A stretch of 64,000 nt of DNA, taken from contig NZ_UZWE01000031.1 in the NCBI RefSeq assembly GCF_900631945.1, positions 1-64,000 on the forward strand, read 5' to 3'. Shown here one piece after another: positions 57,631 to 63,503 of this stretch. The notes under the pieces were generated by a model. The model did not search any database and was not told the origin of the DNA. It was given only the letters and a program-made list of their open reading frames with translations. Source of the DNA: Paracoccus haematequi. Lineage in GTDB: Bacteria > Pseudomonadota > Alphaproteobacteria > Rhodobacterales > Rhodobacteraceae. The position numbers were made by a program, and so were the translations under genes. Position 1 is the stretch's first letter, and every line of letters starts with the position of its first letter.

Positions 57631-58542
57631 TCAGGCGGGCATCTCATGCGCCCAGGGCGGATTGGCGCCGGGACGGGACACGGTGATGGCTGCGGCCCGT
57701 GCGCCCAGGGTCAGCGCGGCGGCGATCTGGTCCGGCGTGATGGTGGCCAGCCCCGCCTTGGTCAGGACACCCTGGCGGCGCAGGCTGGCAAGGACGCCAG
57801 CGTTGAAGGTGTCCCCCGCGCCGATGGTGTCGGCCACGGTGGTGCGGATCGCGGGCGCCGCGACCGGATCGCCCGCCCAATGCGCCCGAGCCCCTGCCGC
57901 GCCGCCGGTTTGCAGCACCAGCCGAGGCCCCTGCGCCAGCACCCGCCGCGCGGCGTCTTCCAGGGGCAGGTCGGGATACAGCCATTCCAGGTCGTCGCCC
58001 GACAGCTTCACGATGTCGGACCGGGCGATCAGCCGTGCCAGCCGGGCACGATAGGCCTCGGCGTCGGGGATGAAGAAGGGCCGGATGTTCGGATCCAGCA
58101 TCACCGGCAGGCGCCCGCCTTCGCGGGTGATCAGCGATTCGATGGCCGCGCCGCAGGGATCGGGCACCAGGCTGATGCCACCCGCGAACAGCGCGTCGAT
58201 GGCGTCGGGCAGGGTCGGAATATCCTTGGGCGCCAGCATCCGCCCGGCCGATCCTTCGTCATAGAAGGAATAGCGCGCCTCGCCCCCGGTCAGCGTCACG
58301 AGGGCCAGCGTGGTCAGCCGGTCGGTGCGGGGGCACAGGTCGGTGTCGACCCCCGCCTCGGCCAGCGGGCGCAGCAGCATGTCGCCGAAGGCGTCGCGGC
58401 TGATCGGCCACAGATAGGACACGGATTCCCCAAGACGGCCAAGCGCGATGGCGGTGTTATAGACCGATCCCCCCGCCAAAGGCCGGAAACTGCCATCCTC
58501 CGGCACCATGTCGATCAGCGATTCGCCCGCGCACAGGATCAT
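57631..58542 (-). CDS. PfkB-family sugar kinase (fructokinase-like)
   Basis: A 303-residue ribokinase-fold kinase. MILCAGESLIDMVPEDGSFR is the N-terminal substrate lid. GGSVYNTAIALGRLG carries the first PfkB signature, and DTIGAGDTFNAGVLASLRRQ (about 245) the second, with the catalytic Asp in GAGD. The organisation resembles bacterial fructokinases, so D-fructose is the most likely substrate, but other sugars are possible. It sits 12 bases after the zinc-ribbon gene and 42 before trpC on the same strand, with no sugar transporter nearby. Confidence 0.87.
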   Translation of the reverse strand: MILCAGESLIDMVPEDGSFRPLAGGSVYNTAIALGRLGESVSYLWPISRDAFGDMLLRPLAEAGVDTDLCPRTDRLTTLALVTLTGGEARYSFYDEGSAGRMLAPKDIPTLPDAIDALFAGGISLVPDPCGAAIESLITREGGRLPVMLDPNIRPFFIPDAEAYRARLARLIARSDIVKLSGDDLEWLYPDLPLEDAARRVLAQGPRLVLQTGGAAGARAHWAGDPVAAPAIRTTVADTIGAGDTFNAGVLASLRRQGVLTKAGLATITPDQIAAALTLGARAAAITVSRPGANPPWAHEMPA

Positions 58543-58554
58543 CGTCCCCTCCGT

Positions 58555-59814
58555 TCAGTAAATCCTGACCACATCGCCCGACCGTTCCAGCACGCCGCCC
58601 AGATCGATGTAGCCCCCCGCCTCGGCCAGATACAGGAAAGCTGCTAGCGCAACCAGTGCGGTGATCGCCGCTGCGGTGATTTTCCAGACCGACCACGGGC
58701 GCTCTCCGACCACGCGGCCCGACTGGCCGTTGACCACGAAGCGATAGCTTTTGCCGTTATAACGATAGGCCGCCGTCCAGACCGGCAGCAGGATATGCTT
58801 GAACGTCTCGTCGGCATAGTCGGTGCTGATGTGATCGACGCGCTGTTCGTCGCCGCCGATGGCGCGCCGCGCGTCGTTCAGGATCACCCCGGCCATTTCC
58901 GCCCGCGCGGTCTTGTGGCCGTCGTAAAGCGGGATCGTATAGGCCTCGGCTTCCAGCCCGGCCAGATAGTCCGGGCGATAGGGACGCAGATGCGACAGAT
59001 CCCAAGGCGCCAGCCCGTCCGAGAACTTGCGCGGCAGCGAGGCCGAGGCCAGCACCACCACATCGTTGAAGTCGCGCGCCACGCGGCCCTGCGCCGGGCG
59101 CCAGCGGGTGCGGCGGACCTGCCGGGCGACCTGCTGGCTGCGGCCGTTCACCTGCTGCGTGACATAGACGGTCTCGTAATAATAATCGCCCCGCTGCCCG
59201 GCATAGCTGGACCGGGTGCGGGCGTCGAAGGTCCAGAACGGCGAATAGACGCCGCGCATCCGCCGCCCCCGCCGGGCATAGGCGGTCAGCCCCGACGGCG
59301 CGAACCACAGCCCGCCCAGCCAGTCCTGCATGGCGCGATGGGCCTGATCCTCGGCCAGGCGAAAGGGCAGGACGCCCTGGGGCTTGATCTTGCGGCTGGT
59401 GCCGGTGTCGGTGACGACCGGCGTCGCGCAGAACGGGCAGGCCCCGGCATGGCTGCTGTCGCCCACCTCGATCTGGGCGCCGCAATTGGGGCAGGACAGC
59501 AGGCGGACCGTCGCGGCAAGATCGGATCCGGCATCCAGGCGAAGGCCCTGCTCCAGCGGGATTTCCGCCAGTTCCGGCGCCTTGTGCCCGGCATCCCATT
59601 GCAGGGCGCGGCCTGTTTCGGGATCGGCCAGGATCGCATCCTCGCCCTCCGCCCCACCCCGGGTCTGGCGGGCGGGCGCGCGGGCCGGGCCGTCGCCGAT
59701 GGCCTGCCGGTGCCCGCACCAGTCGCAGACCAGCACCTGCTGGCCCGGCTGGAAGCGCAGGCTGGCCCCGCATTGTTCGCAAGGGTAACGGTGTTCGGCC
59801 GGCGGGGTCGGCAT
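58555..59814 (-). CDS. zinc-ribbon membrane protein (TFIIB-type Zn finger, YdjG-like)
   Basis: A 419-residue protein with two zinc ribbons. The first is YPCEQCGASLRF...LVCDWCGHRQ (about 10-38) and the second LSCPNCGAQIEV...GACPFCATPV (about 105-132). A large soluble region with GVYSPFWTFDARTRSSYAGQ follows, and one C-terminal membrane helix (ITAAAITALVALAAFLYLA, about 385-405). The layout recalls YdjG of Bacillus subtilis, a partner of the SPFH protein YdjI. It begins 7 bases after the SPFH gene stop. The likely role is a membrane-associated scaffold or partner of that protein. Confidence 0.75.
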   Translation of the reverse strand: MPTPPAEHRYPCEQCGASLRFQPGQQVLVCDWCGHRQAIGDGPARAPARQTRGGAEGEDAILADPETGRALQWDAGHKAPELAEIPLEQGLRLDAGSDLAATVRLLSCPNCGAQIEVGDSSHAGACPFCATPVVTDTGTSRKIKPQGVLPFRLAEDQAHRAMQDWLGGLWFAPSGLTAYARRGRRMRGVYSPFWTFDARTRSSYAGQRGDYYYETVYVTQQVNGRSQQVARQVRRTRWRPAQGRVARDFNDVVVLASASLPRKFSDGLAPWDLSHLRPYRPDYLAGLEAEAYTIPLYDGHKTARAEMAGVILNDARRAIGGDEQRVDHISTDYADETFKHILLPVWTAAYRYNGKSYRFVVNGQSGRVVGERPWSVWKITAAAITALVALAAFLYLAEAGGYIDLGGVLERSGDVVRIY

Positions 59815-59821
59815 GAAGCGG

Positions 59822-60934
59822 TCAGCCGGGCAGGGGCGGCGGCATGGTCGGGAACAGATGCGCCAGTTCGGGAATATCGCCCGCCTTGCGCCAGCCGTCC
59901 TGGCCCGGCGTCCAGACCAGCGTGTCGTGCAGGACGCGACCCTCGGCCGACAGGCGCTGCAAACCGGCACGGTCGAACGGCCCCTCGGCCCGGCCGTTCA
60001 GCGCGACATGCCAGACCGCCGCGTCCTGCGGCAGGGGCGGAGGGGTCGCAGCCCCGGCCTGCGGAACGCTGCCCCACGGACCCGAGGCCGGGCGCGCCGC
60101 CATGCCGGCGCCAAGCGCCGCGCCCATGGCAGCACCCATCCCGGCCCCCGCGGCGCCGGGGTTCTGGCTGGCATTCACCATCGCCTCGCCCGCCGCATAT
60201 CGGCCAAAGCGGTCCAGGTCGCCCAGGATTCCCATCGAGGTGCGCTTGTCCAGCATCTTCTCGACTTCCTGGGGCAAGCTGATGTTTTCGATGTAGAATT
60301 CCGGGATCGTCAGGCCATAGGCGCTGATCGTCGGTTCGATCGCGGTGGCGACCAGCTTGCCCAGGTCGCCGGTGTTCGCGGCCATGTCCAGCACCGGGAT
60401 CCCAGATCCGGCGATGATGCGGGAAAACTCCTGCACGATCACATTGCGGATCTGGAAGGCGATCTCGTCGCGGGTGAATTCGCCGTCGGTGCCGACGATT
60501 TCCGTCATGAACCGCGCCGGGTCGGTTACGCGCAGGGAATAGGTGCCGAAGGCGCGCAGCCGCACCGGGCCGAATTCCGGGTCGCGCGCCATCACCGGGT
60601 TCTTGGTGCCCCATTTCAGGTCGTTGAAGCGCGTGGTGTTGACGAAATAGATCTCGGACTTGAAGGGGCTGCGAAAGCCGTGGTCCCAATGCTGCAATCG
60701 CGTCAGGATCGGCAGGTTGTTGGTTTCCAGCATGTAGAGGCCGGGGCCGAAGGTATCGGCCAATTGCCCTTCATGGATGAAGACGGCGGCCTGGCCCTCT
60801 CGCACCGTCAGCTTGGCGCCGTATTTGATCGCGTTGCCAACGGTCGGATAGCGCCAGACCATCGTGTCGCGGGTGTCGTCGGTCCATTCGATGACCTCGA
60901 TGAATTCGCCGCCGAGAATGTCGAAGATCGCCAT
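59822..60934 (-). CDS. SPFH-domain protein with C-terminal GYF_2 domain (YdjI-like)
   Basis: A 370-residue protein. The first about 250 residues form an SPFH/virion-core-like domain (MAIFDILGGEFIEVIEWTDD, then RYPTVGNAIKYGAKLTVREG and QAAVFIHEGQLADTFGPGLY). A Gly/Ala/Met-rich linker (about 265-295) leads to a C-terminal GYF_2 domain (about 310-365, with WHVALNGRAEGPFDRAGLQR and WTPGQDGWRKAGDIPEL). GYF-type domains bind proline-rich peptides. GGAGGGACAG precedes the ATG. Similar SPFH proteins partner with PspA-like ESCRT proteins in membrane stress, but no pspA is nearby here. Confidence 0.8.
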   Translation of the reverse strand: MAIFDILGGEFIEVIEWTDDTRDTMVWRYPTVGNAIKYGAKLTVREGQAAVFIHEGQLADTFGPGLYMLETNNLPILTRLQHWDHGFRSPFKSEIYFVNTTRFNDLKWGTKNPVMARDPEFGPVRLRAFGTYSLRVTDPARFMTEIVGTDGEFTRDEIAFQIRNVIVQEFSRIIAGSGIPVLDMAANTGDLGKLVATAIEPTISAYGLTIPEFYIENISLPQEVEKMLDKRTSMGILGDLDRFGRYAAGEAMVNASQNPGAAGAGMGAAMGAALGAGMAARPASGPWGSVPQAGAATPPPLPQDAAVWHVALNGRAEGPFDRAGLQRLSAEGRVLHDTLVWTPGQDGWRKAGDIPELAHLFPTMPPPLPG

Positions 60935-60992
60935 CTGTCCCTCCGCAGGATGTCTTGTGCCTGTATGCGGCCAAGCCCCGCCGCCGCGCAAG

Positions 60993-62018
60993 TCAGATGC
61001 TTTGCGCCAGCAGCTCGGCCGCGATGCGGCGGACGATCGGCTCGGCCTCGGCCGCCGACATGCCGGGACGCAGGCGCGGGTCATAGAGGATCCGCAGCAG
61101 CAATTCGTCGTGCCGGGTCAGCAGGGCGAATTCCTCGTCGTCGTTGAAGATCGACGGGCGGGCGTCGGGGCTGTCATTGGCAAGGCCCATGCCCTGGGCC
61201 AGTTCCTCGTGGATGCAGGATGTCTGCAACAGCGGCGGCAGTTCGGCCCGGATCAGCGCCACGGCATTGGAATAGACCGGCGACGCGCCCCGCGAATAGG
61301 CGAAGACGGTGCAGAAATTGTCCGCGTCCAGGGCCTGCATGACCGCGATATCCTGCGCGGGGATGCCGGGCACCAGCTGCGCCAGGCGCGGGCCGATGGC
61401 ACGGCGTTCGTCGTCGGACAGGACCATGACCACGAAATTTCCGCCGTTCTCGGCCAGCGAAACGCTGTGCCCGGTCGCCTGCGCCAGCCGCGCGGCGAAC
61501 TGGCTGACCTCGACCCGATAGGCGCGGCGGGTGGCCACATCGACGACGGCCCCGAATTCCATCTGGATCCGCACCGGATCCTGCCAGCGGCGCAGGGGCG
61601 CGGGGGTGCCGCTGTCCCTGGCTTGGATGCCGCCCGCGCCATATTCGTCGCGCAGCGCGATGGCGATGAAATCGCGGGTCAGCGCGTCTTCGTCGATGGG
61701 CGCGTCCAGGGGCACCCGTTCCCGGCGCAGGCGGCCCTGGTCCAGAAGCGCGCGTTCGGCGCGGGCATAGAAATCCCGCTGCGCCGTGCTTGCAAGGCTG
61801 GCCTGGGTCAGGGCCTGGGACGCGGCGGCGTTGGCGGCGCGATTGCGTTCCGCGCGGGCCTTGCGCAACTCCGCCTGCGACGGGCCGTCATCCTGGGGCC
61901 GCGCGACCGGGCGCGGAACGGGAACCGGCTGCGGTTCGGTTTCGGGCGCCTGGCACGCCGCCAGGGCCAACAGCGCCAGCAGCGGCAGGCTGCGCAAGCC
62001 GTCTGTCCTGTGGCTCAT
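60993..62018 (-). CDS. DUF2927 family lipoprotein
   Basis: A 341-residue lipoprotein: signal MSHRTDGLRSLPLLALLALA then AAC with the lipidated Cys at about residue 22, and a Pro-rich linker. An Ala/Arg-rich helix (about 50-95) follows, then a DUF2927 domain (about 105-290). That domain contains RRWQDPVRIQMEFGA and a protease-like TSCIHEELAQGMGLANDSPD segment. The H-E-E-L-x-Q motif resembles a degenerate zinc-peptidase HExxH lacking the second His. The start overlaps the telA stop (ATGA). The function is unknown. It is the periplasm-facing member of the module. Confidence 0.8.
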   Translation of the reverse strand: MSHRTDGLRSLPLLALLALAACQAPETEPQPVPVPRPVARPQDDGPSQAELRKARAERNRAANAAASQALTQASLASTAQRDFYARAERALLDQGRLRRERVPLDAPIDEDALTRDFIAIALRDEYGAGGIQARDSGTPAPLRRWQDPVRIQMEFGAVVDVATRRAYRVEVSQFAARLAQATGHSVSLAENGGNFVVMVLSDDERRAIGPRLAQLVPGIPAQDIAVMQALDADNFCTVFAYSRGASPVYSNAVALIRAELPPLLQTSCIHEELAQGMGLANDSPDARPSIFNDDEEFALLTRHDELLLRILYDPRLRPGMSAAEAEPIVRRIAAELLAQSI

Positions 62019-63187
62019 GTCCGCGCCGGAGTCCCCTGACCCTGCGCCGTGGCGCGGGCCAACGTGTCGCGAAGATCGGCCTCCATCTTGGTCAGGTCGC
62101 TTTCGGCGGCGGCGCGGCGGGCGCGGCCCTCGTCGGCGATGCGCAGGCTGTCCTCGATCGTGGCGATCAGTTGCGCATTGGCCGCCTTGACCGAGTTGAT
62201 GTCGAAGACGCCCCGTTCGGTCTGGGTGCGGATCTGCGCATTGGCCTGACGCAGGTTGTCGGCGTTGCGGGTCAGCAGGTCGTTGGTCAGATCGCTGGCT
62301 TCCTTGACGGCGCGCGCGGCCTCGGCGCTGCGCTGGATCGTCACCGCCTGGGCAAGCTGCGTTTCCCACAGCGGCACGGTGTTCACCAGGGTCGAGTTGA
62401 TCTTGGTGACCAGCGACTTGTCGTTTTCCTGCACCAGCCGGATCGAGGGCAGGGACTGCATCGTCACCTGCCGCGTCAGCTTCAGGTCGTGGACGCGGCG
62501 TTCCAGGTCGTCGCGGCCCGCCCGCAGGTCGCGCAGCGCCTGGGCCTGCATGACCTGCTGATCCTCGGGGGCGGCCTTCACGCGGGCCTCCATCTCGGGG
62601 ATGGTGGTGCTGTCCAGTTCCCGCAACTTCTCTTCTCCGGCGGCGATGTACAGCGCCAGTTCGTCATAGAAGTTCAGCGTGTGGTCATACAGCAGGTCCA
62701 GCGACTTGATGTCCTTCAGCAGCGTCTGTTCGTGCCGTTCCAGTTCGACCGTGATGCGGTCGATCTGGGTCTGGACCTGTTCGTAATTCGCCACGAATTT
62801 CGCGAAGGGCGCCGACCGGCCCAGCAGCTTTTCCCACCAGCTGCGCGTCCGCCGCATGTCCAGCTCGCTGGTCGAGAAGCCGCGGATCGTCGTCACGATG
62901 CTGCGCAGGCTTTCGCCCGCGGGACCGACATCCTTGCTTTTGACATCGGCCAGCATCTTCTGGCTGATTTCCTGCAAGCCCGCCTGCGCGCGGGTGCCGA
63001 AGCGGACGATGGATCCGGTATCGCCCAGGTCGATCTCGTCCATGCGGCGGCGGATTTCGGCCTGAAGCTGGGGATCGGCGTCGCGGACCGACAGCGGATC
63101 GGCCTTGGGCTGGGGCAGGGGCGCCGATGTCACCGTCTCGATCTCGGTGCGGATGTCTTCGGCGCGGCGGCGGGTCTCGTCGGTCAT
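62015..63187 (-). CDS. telA: toxic anion resistance protein, TelA family
   Basis: A 390-residue, mostly helical cytoplasmic protein of the TelA/KlaA family, first linked to tellurite resistance in plasmids. It shows the conserved RIVxFG-like SIVRFGTRAQAGLQEISQKM (about 60) and TSELDMRRTRSWWEKLLGRS (about 110). Coiled-coil helices (LKDIKSLDLLYDHTLNFYDE) and a C-terminal heptad region rich in Q/N follow. The ATG at 63187 has GGAAGGAAG upstream. It begins the telA-DUF2927-SPFH-Zn-ribbon unit. No ter genes accompany it, so membrane or envelope stress is a better guess than tellurite. Confidence 0.85.
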   Translation of the reverse strand: MTDETRRRAEDIRTEIETVTSAPLPQPKADPLSVRDADPQLQAEIRRRMDEIDLGDTGSIVRFGTRAQAGLQEISQKMLADVKSKDVGPAGESLRSIVTTIRGFSTSELDMRRTRSWWEKLLGRSAPFAKFVANYEQVQTQIDRITVELERHEQTLLKDIKSLDLLYDHTLNFYDELALYIAAGEEKLRELDSTTIPEMEARVKAAPEDQQVMQAQALRDLRAGRDDLERRVHDLKLTRQVTMQSLPSIRLVQENDKSLVTKINSTLVNTVPLWETQLAQAVTIQRSAEAARAVKEASDLTNDLLTRNADNLRQANAQIRTQTERGVFDINSVKAANAQLIATIEDSLRIADEGRARRAAAESDLTKMEADLRDTLARATAQGQGTPART

Positions 63188-63503
63188 GGCGCTTCCTTCC
63201 CTGGGCCTGTGCAAGCCAGGCATGTTGCGGCGCAGCATAGGCGGAATGCGGCGCAGTTCAACAAAGCGCCGCGCGAAAATATGCGGTCCATGCAGCCCCG
63301 CAACAGGGGGCGATTCGGGTGGCCGTCGGGCGGGTCGGGGGCGCGGAACTGCTGAACCCTATCCAAAATGTCAGGTCATTAACGCAGTTAAATCAAACTT
63401 TATGCATATTCTTCCCTGCTCCAGGGTGCTAATGTCGTCCCGTTAGCAGGTGCCGTCCCCGATTTCAGGGGCATATTTTTTCCAAGTGTTAGTGCAGGTA
63501 AAG
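63188..63503. other. 316-base divergent promoter region between telA and the sugar transferase gene
   Basis: No gene is visible here. A markedly A/T-rich patch at about 63366-63415 (TTAACGCAGTTAAATC, TTTATGCATATTC) contrasts with the GC-rich surroundings and probably holds a promoter. An inverted repeat GCTAA-N10-TTAGC occupies 63428-63447. A small hairpin, CCCC/GGGG with a 7-base loop, at 63457-63471 is followed by TATTTTTT and might act as a weak attenuator in the leader of the sugar transferase gene. Confidence 0.5.

Follow-up and report, generated by a model that had tools for sequence, protein, structure and literature searches.

In Bacillus, YdjI acts with YdjG/YdjH to bring PspA to the membrane (PMC8581546), and a comparative study of phage shock protein (PSP) systems reports cases of band-7 genes replacing or accompanying PspA and suggests that band-7 and TPM partners act in a chaperone-like way when membrane-linked complexes are put together (PMC11237479). 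The Firmicutes also possess an operon of XpaC and TelA genes (Lactococcus llmg_1115-1116, Listeria lmo1966-1967). In L. lactis, the XpaC-like llmg_1115 was upregulated 10.3-fold and telA1 3.44-fold on membrane-protein overproduction, as listed for the CesSR envelope-stress regulon in Table 1 of that study (PMC3139573). In Listeria, lmo1966-1967 (XpaC, TelA), named as regulated by a LiaSR-like system, were slightly upregulated by garvicin KS at 20 min (log2 0.63 and 0.61), with no differential genes at 60 min, and the sensitivity of an lmo1967 mutant is cited as raised 4-fold for nisin and 2-fold for tellurite (PMC12791056). A review lists R. sphaeroides telA among the chromosomal tellurite-resistance genes, citing O'Gara 1997 (PMC6955997). 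The words TelA and SPFH do not occur in the main text of the PSP comparison (PMC11237479); a literature search, thin on subscription journals, returned no paper linking TelA with SPFH and PspA, none linking 'toxic anion resistance' with SPFH or Rhodobacterales, and none on DUF2927. Here, we describe a row of four genes from Paracoccus haematequi that encodes TelA, a DUF2927 lipoprotein, an SPFH protein and a double zinc-ribbon protein. It lies in a 64,000-nucleotide stretch of DNA (hereafter the window), which is the first 64 kb of an 87,631-base contig (NZ_UZWE01000031.1) in a 4.1 Mb genome. The row belongs to a conserved gene module of which XpaC is also a core member, and it may encode a membrane-protection complex.

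Like pspA-ydjG-ydjH-ydjI of B. subtilis, the row combines an anchorless SPFH protein with a protein that has two zinc ribbons and a single membrane segment, and a cytoplasmic helical protein is encoded alongside; B. subtilis also scores with the Band_7_1 model, as the SPFH protein of the window does. A YdjG-like protein is defined by a YpeB/NTF2-like domain in addition to its zinc ribbons and membrane segment, and YdjH-like proteins by a TPM domain. The resemblance to PspA partners pointed out in an earlier note on this DNA thus holds in kind. However, the PSP system of B. subtilis contains PspA, whereas the Paracoccus row and genome lack it and have TelA and XpaC in its place; the SPFH protein of the window also carries a GYF_2 tail, and a lipoprotein has been added. 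The Firmicutes XpaC-TelA operon agrees with the row in these two families and their order, but in a Listeria record it stands without SPFH or zinc-ribbon genes, which follow, with DUF2927, in the family of the window.

To survey this family (Rhodobacteraceae), 101 genomes from 54 genera were searched with one profile for each of five components. Adjacency was scored as the same strand and order within 6 kb, and contig breaks counted as misses, so that the counts are lower bounds; the DUF2927 places of four genomes lay outside the listing and were scored as missing, and one of these genomes (G059; handles beginning with G, C and L denote our genomes, contigs and loci) does have the gene in the row. 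TelA was present in 100 genomes, nearly always as a single copy, DUF2927 in at least 100, Band_7_1 in 99 (98 above the cut-off), the zinc-ribbon protein in 98 and XpaC in 99. TelA and DUF2927 genes were adjacent in at least 95 genomes, DUF2927 and SPFH genes in at least 93, and SPFH and zinc-ribbon genes in at least 86, with the SPFH gene no more than 6 kb downstream of telA in at least 97. The row of four was complete in at least 81 genomes, and the row of five including XpaC in at least 76. A neighbourhood survey of this kind had been set beforehand as a possible refutation of the module; within the family it came out strongly positive and supports a real gene module, and the conservation of gene order across the family rules out chance as the source of the four-gene row. 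A second set of 80 loci from named genomes, partly overlapping the first, contained the exact order XpaC-TelA-DUF2927-SPFH-zinc ribbon at 36 loci, with TerC in front at 12 more and a second XpaC-like gene in tandem at a further 5. The flanking genes vary between loci while the module persists.

Several variants of the row were also observed. DUF2927 is missing from it at two family loci (L043 and L051), and a cytochrome b561-like gene lies between the SPFH and zinc-ribbon genes at 9 of 67 loci (e.g., L083, 5310-5879). A second, weaker XpaC-like gene precedes XpaC in tandem at L155, L156, L166, L174, L192 and L196. The record behind L192 is titled Enemella evansiae, which we take to be an actinobacterial name, and carries a typical operon of the window's family, probably through contamination or a wrong label.

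XpaC (PF10112) was overlooked by the earlier note because Paracoccus carries it elsewhere, yet it is a core member of the module and lies directly upstream of telA in at least 93 of the 101 family genomes. The eight exceptions comprise two genomes without an XpaC match (G011 and G085) and all six Paracoccus genomes, in which XpaC is located elsewhere; in the window's own genome it is found on another contig (C65:15694-16146; PF10112, 74 bits). The protein usually has two membrane-like segments and a soluble part. Among the 80 named loci, 18 show no XpaC, namely 17 Paracoccus loci and L162, although two of the Paracoccus loci (L133 and L136) include under 600 bases ahead of telA and so allow no verdict, and L162 includes only about 100.

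Upstream of XpaC, and usually ending a few bases from its start, lies an open reading frame (ORF) of mostly 26-30 codons with one membrane helix, which is present at most of the loci L037-L094 and L134-L202. A profile of this microprotein, built from 94 loci, reached the threshold of 12 bits at 119 of 126 XpaC loci versus none of 308 control stretches. At the 32 loci outside the training set, all 26 family loci scored and none of the 6 outside the family did; the seventh miss, Paracoccus locus L090, was part of the training set. The ORFs differ most at third codon positions (0.385/0.285/0.592 across the three positions in the 34 ORFs that are 27 codons long; 0.471/0.319/0.586 in the 34 that are 29 codons long). 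In Paracoccus, the microprotein accompanies XpaC at L089 and L091-L094, and less surely at L090, with the copy of the window's own genome at L089, 5529-5609 (about 27 residues). Its persistence beside XpaC in a genus that keeps XpaC apart from telA is the best indication that this unannotated membrane microprotein works with XpaC. A second microprotein of about 38 residues, starting MSKxTFYF, was seen upstream of XpaC only at TerC-bearing loci (L037, L043, L044, L054, L151, L184, L193-L195 and others). Another upstream cluster in the locus maps ('f4') was ascribed to spurious frames that overlie unrelated genes ahead of XpaC.

Beyond the family, a draw of 152 alphaproteobacterial genomes contained TelA in 15 and Band_7_1 (counted above 200 bits) in 8; all 8 of the latter have TelA, and the two lie together in 6. 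At four of these six loci, from four other families (L099-L102), XpaC, TelA, SPFH and zinc-ribbon genes are contiguous without DUF2927. DUF2927 itself occurs in 17 of the 152 genomes, 15 of them outside the window's family, but in none of these 15 is it next to TelA, the nearest case (G211) being about 4.7 kb off on the other strand. DUF2927 was therefore rejected as a core member, and its earlier treatment as a general part of the module was not borne out: it is a family-level addition, absent from the row in the four other families. In a phylum draw of 200 genomes (E limit 1e-20), Band_7_1 was found outside the class in 14 genomes, with the zinc-ribbon gene (>300 bits) directly downstream in 12; at the two exceptions, the contig ends first (L215) or the zinc-ribbon match is only weak (L222). 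TelA was adjacent to SPFH at none of these 14 loci and was present elsewhere in 3 of the 14 genomes. The same families in the same order, with no TelA beside them, also occur on plasmids of Vibrio coralliilyticus (L116) and Tsukamurella (L119). As SPFH and zinc-ribbon genes form a pair without TelA outside the class, and XpaC-TelA stands alone in the Listeria record, the most economical interpretation is a merger of the two conserved pairs into a single operon in Alphaproteobacteria, with an insertion of DUF2927 in the family of the window. On a Novosphingobium plasmid (L121), a gene of this SPFH family precedes DUF4178, DUF350 and polyamine aminopropyltransferase genes, which represent another set of SPFH partners.

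An AlphaFold2 model of the DUF2927 protein, computed from 67 sequences, reached a mean pLDDT of 90.9. All 50 matches listed by Foldseek were matrix metalloproteinases (MMPs), karilysin or snapalysin (best E 0.003, none below 0.001), and all 50 listed by VIA-align were matrixins (Z 11.2-12.1, rmsd 2.5-3.3), with the alignment to MMP-7 (a 159-residue chain) giving Z 12.1 and rmsd 2.5 over 147 residues. The predicted fold shared with the matrixins covers DUF2927 residues of about 116-315. Metzincins bind zinc through the motif HExxHxxGxxH, and at this place DUF2927 has the conserved stretch E271-E272-L-A-Q275-G-M-G278-L-A-N281-D282, a register that is our own reading, as no tool gave a residue-level structural alignment. 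In this register, the zinc histidines would be replaced by Glu (E271), Gln (Q275) and Asn (N281), with the catalytic Glu (E272) kept. The HEELxQ motif singled out earlier in the lipoprotein is indeed present, as HEELAQ, and strongly conserved in the 67-row alignment, in which E271, E272, Q275, G278 and D282 are invariant and N281 is found in 64 rows; this near-invariance points to a conserved use of the altered site rather than decay. A sequence search of DUF2927 against solved structures returned no metzincin match, so the assignment relies on the predicted fold and the motif register. The protein is thus likely a pseudo-metzincin lipoprotein, differing from the matrixins in its EExxQxxGxxN in place of the zinc site and in being a lipid-anchored bacterial protein. 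A second, unlinked DUF2927 gene, with frames mostly of 450-500 codons, is present in most family genomes (e.g., G001:C1:1762767 and G002:C1:2085198), and no second match was found in the six Paracoccus genomes.

The GYF_2 tail and the zinc-ribbon architecture described in the earlier note were both confirmed. The SPFH tail matches the GYF_2 model, and a gliding protein (entry 7z3c, E 0.0017) is a GYF relative of solved structure. The zinc-ribbon protein, which no Pfam model matched above the cut-off, has two CxxC...CxxC sets, with eight Cys invariant in a six-sequence alignment, and a single membrane-like segment by hydropathy, as do all 65 relatives scored; hydropathy gave no such segment in the TelA or SPFH protein of the window. 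Of 75 relatives of the SPFH protein, 69 have a Pro-rich tail at the C terminus, 38 have PPPPPG near the end (PPPLPG in the window), and 61 have a Pro-rich stretch ahead of GYF_2. The placement of GYF_2 beside a Pro-rich tail suggests chain-to-chain binding of SPFH proteins, and this tail, one of two GYF ligands proposed earlier, stands as a candidate supported by its conservation. The other, the Pro-rich linker of the lipoprotein, is also conserved (at least 5 Pro in 45 residues in 70 of the 72 proteins, among 79, that have a lipobox-like site), but it is an unlikely ligand because it follows the lipobox and should be outside the cytoplasm, whereas the SPFH protein has neither a signal nor a membrane segment. 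The XpaC tail was dropped as a ligand, with PP in only 15 of 50 tails (50 of 67 XpaC ORFs had a recognisable start). An N-terminal LPxP in TelA is commoner (72 of 80), but we do not vouch for LPxP as a GYF motif.

The AlphaFold2 model of TelA is all helix, with long helices at residues 127-205, 208-324 and 330-383 (pLDDT 74.7, pTM 0.56). The best of the 50 matches listed were ClyA-type pore formers, microtubule proteins and designed bundles, which we treat as a common long-helix pattern; no PspA or ESCRT-III chain was among these 50, which by itself shows nothing. A distant relationship of TelA to PspA/ESCRT-III was rejected as a homology claim after comparison of profiles of 11 TelA and 12 PspA sequences. 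A search of the whole genome of the window found no PspA (PF04012), extending the earlier statement of its absence. In the family, PspA is absent from 63 of the 101 genomes and matched in 38 (37 above the cut-off), nowhere closer to telA than 21.6 kb. The companion statement that no ter gene is present held for TerC, which tblastn did not detect in the window and the next 16 kb, a search aimed at TerC only and not genome-wide. Elsewhere, TerC lies directly upstream of XpaC on the same strand, with a gap of 74-273 nt, at 11 of 56 module loci (e.g., L076, 10124-10948). At L098, TerC is near DUF2927 in a genome in which TelA and XpaC were not found.

In the window, the ORFs and Pfam scores agree with the four genes as first called (see the table), and the TelA protein is 91% identical to that of P. 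lichenicola. The stop of telA is overlapped by the ATGA of the DUF2927 gene, followed by gaps of 58 nt and 7 nt, and the four genes are very probably one operon. The PfkB-type kinase gene is possibly co-transcribed with them; its family is present at 30 of 67 loci, the window counted, with a PF00294 match on one relative (L080). A promoter before telA in Paracoccus loci would be expected if telA became the first gene once XpaC left. For the candidate pattern, 0.1 sites are expected by chance, a figure qualified by the choice of the pattern after inspection and by the relatedness of the sequences. A sigma-32-like reading of the same site was considered as an alternative.

Table. Genes of the TelA row and adjoining features in the window
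Feature	Position	Strand	Support
telA: cytoplasmic all-helical TelA protein, 390 aa	63187-62015	minus	PF05816, 354.6 bits; start agrees with relatives
DUF2927 lipoprotein, 341 aa; lipobox LAAC, Pro-rich linker, matrixin-like domain	62018-60993	minus	PF11150, 202.9 bits
SPFH (Band_7_1) protein with GYF_2 and Pro-rich C terminus, 370 aa	60934-59822	minus	PF13421, 342.4 bits; PF14237 (GYF_2), 64.0 bits, residues 308-357
Double zinc-ribbon protein with one C-terminal membrane segment (374-405), 419 aa	59814-58555	minus	sequence
PfkB-type sugar kinase	57631-58542	minus	ORF; begins 12 nt past the zinc-ribbon gene; frequent neighbour
Candidate telA promoter, TTGAAC-N16-TATGCT	63234-63261	minus	similar site in 9 of 14 Paracoccus upstream regions, window counted

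On balance, we lean towards the view that the operon encodes a membrane-protection complex, built by the joining of two older gene pairs, in which TelA is the working part and the SPFH and zinc-ribbon proteins are the anchor. The envelope-stress role is drawn by analogy from the homologues in Lactococcus, Listeria and Bacillus. In such a complex, the SPFH scaffold would be held to the inner membrane by the zinc-ribbon protein, and this platform would recruit and organise TelA at damaged inner-membrane sites, much as YdjI with YdjG/H does for PspA in Bacillus, so that TelA would do the job of PspA without being a detectable relative of it. XpaC and its microprotein may form the membrane receptor of TelA, GYF_2 may help SPFH chains to polymerise by binding the Pro-rich C terminus of an adjacent chain, and the DUF2927 lipoprotein could bind peptides or another ligand on the outer side, reporting or buffering damage there. 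A fuller version, which we advance only tentatively, would be a PspA-independent membrane-repair machine of Alphaproteobacteria, with TelA, a coiled-coil protein unrelated to PspA, as its effector. The SPFH/zinc-ribbon platform beneath it would polymerise by GYF_2-polyproline contacts of its own, and Rhodobacteraceae would have added a periplasmic pseudo-metzincin sensor and the XpaC microprotein.

Several observations weigh against a PspA-like membrane-protection complex. All 38 family genomes with PspA also carry TelA, which indicates that TelA is not a simple substitute for PspA; hhalign gave no match between the profiles of TelA and PspA (probability 2.2), and the TelA model lacks a specific structural match, its Z scores of up to 12.5 being in the usual range for helical models without a clear one. 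The likeness of the zinc-ribbon protein to YdjG and of the SPFH protein to YdjI is drawn from their general features, and the interactions and phenotype of the complex are predicted. In addition, the parts separate in Paracoccus, where XpaC is away from telA in all six genomes of the family survey and the SPFH and zinc-ribbon genes are not within 8 kb of telA at L124, L125 and L129, so that physical linkage is dispensable. Adjacency through shared chromosome ancestry, with no common function, would fit this separation, yet it is very improbable given the four-gene order in at least 81 genomes and, without DUF2927, in four further families, the changing genes on either side of a constant module, and the microprotein that goes with XpaC. 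Finally, the authors of the Listeria study themselves describe lmo1966-1967 as a cation efflux system, with speculation about export (PMC12791056). A role in resistance to tellurite or other ions, or in export, as the name TelA implies, would fit that designation, the listing of R. sphaeroides telA as a tellurite determinant (PMC6955997) and the TerC genes in front of XpaC; nevertheless, near-universal presence in the family better suits a general role, the SPFH, zinc-ribbon and lipoprotein components suggest membrane work, and the lmo1967 mutant was shifted more for nisin than for tellurite (PMC12791056), which makes this explanation unlikely.

The operon could instead serve as a housekeeping assembly factor for respiratory or photosynthetic membrane complexes rather than as a stress system, with the SPFH and zinc-ribbon proteins as chaperones. 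The near-universal and nearly always single-copy TelA suits such a constitutive role, and the chaperone-like role proposed for band-7 and TPM partners (PMC11237479), the response of L. lactis XpaC and telA1 to membrane-protein overproduction (PMC3139573) and the cytochrome b561 genes between SPFH and zinc-ribbon genes are consistent with it. However, most loci lack cytochrome b561, and the Firmicutes XpaC-TelA homologues belong to envelope-stress regulons and are linked to nisin tolerance (PMC3139573, PMC12791056), leaving the assembly role less likely than membrane protection. It is also quite improbable that DUF2927 works as a metallopeptidase through unusual metal ligands (Glu, Gln, Asn/Asp), the operon performing a periplasmic cleavage: the site is conserved instead of decaying and the catalytic Glu position is kept, but all three metzincin zinc histidines are missing and no solved metzincin is matched in sequence.

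TelA owes its name to 'tellurite resistance', an old label with no mechanism attached to it, and DUF2927 is by its designation a domain of unknown function. The gene order reported here ties TelA to the SPFH and zinc-ribbon parts that bring PspA to the membrane in Bacillus, and thereby offers a testable membrane-protection hypothesis for which Rhodobacter and Paracoccus are tractable hosts. If this hypothesis is true, the SPFH/zinc-ribbon platform would be a general adaptor able to serve different helical effectors.

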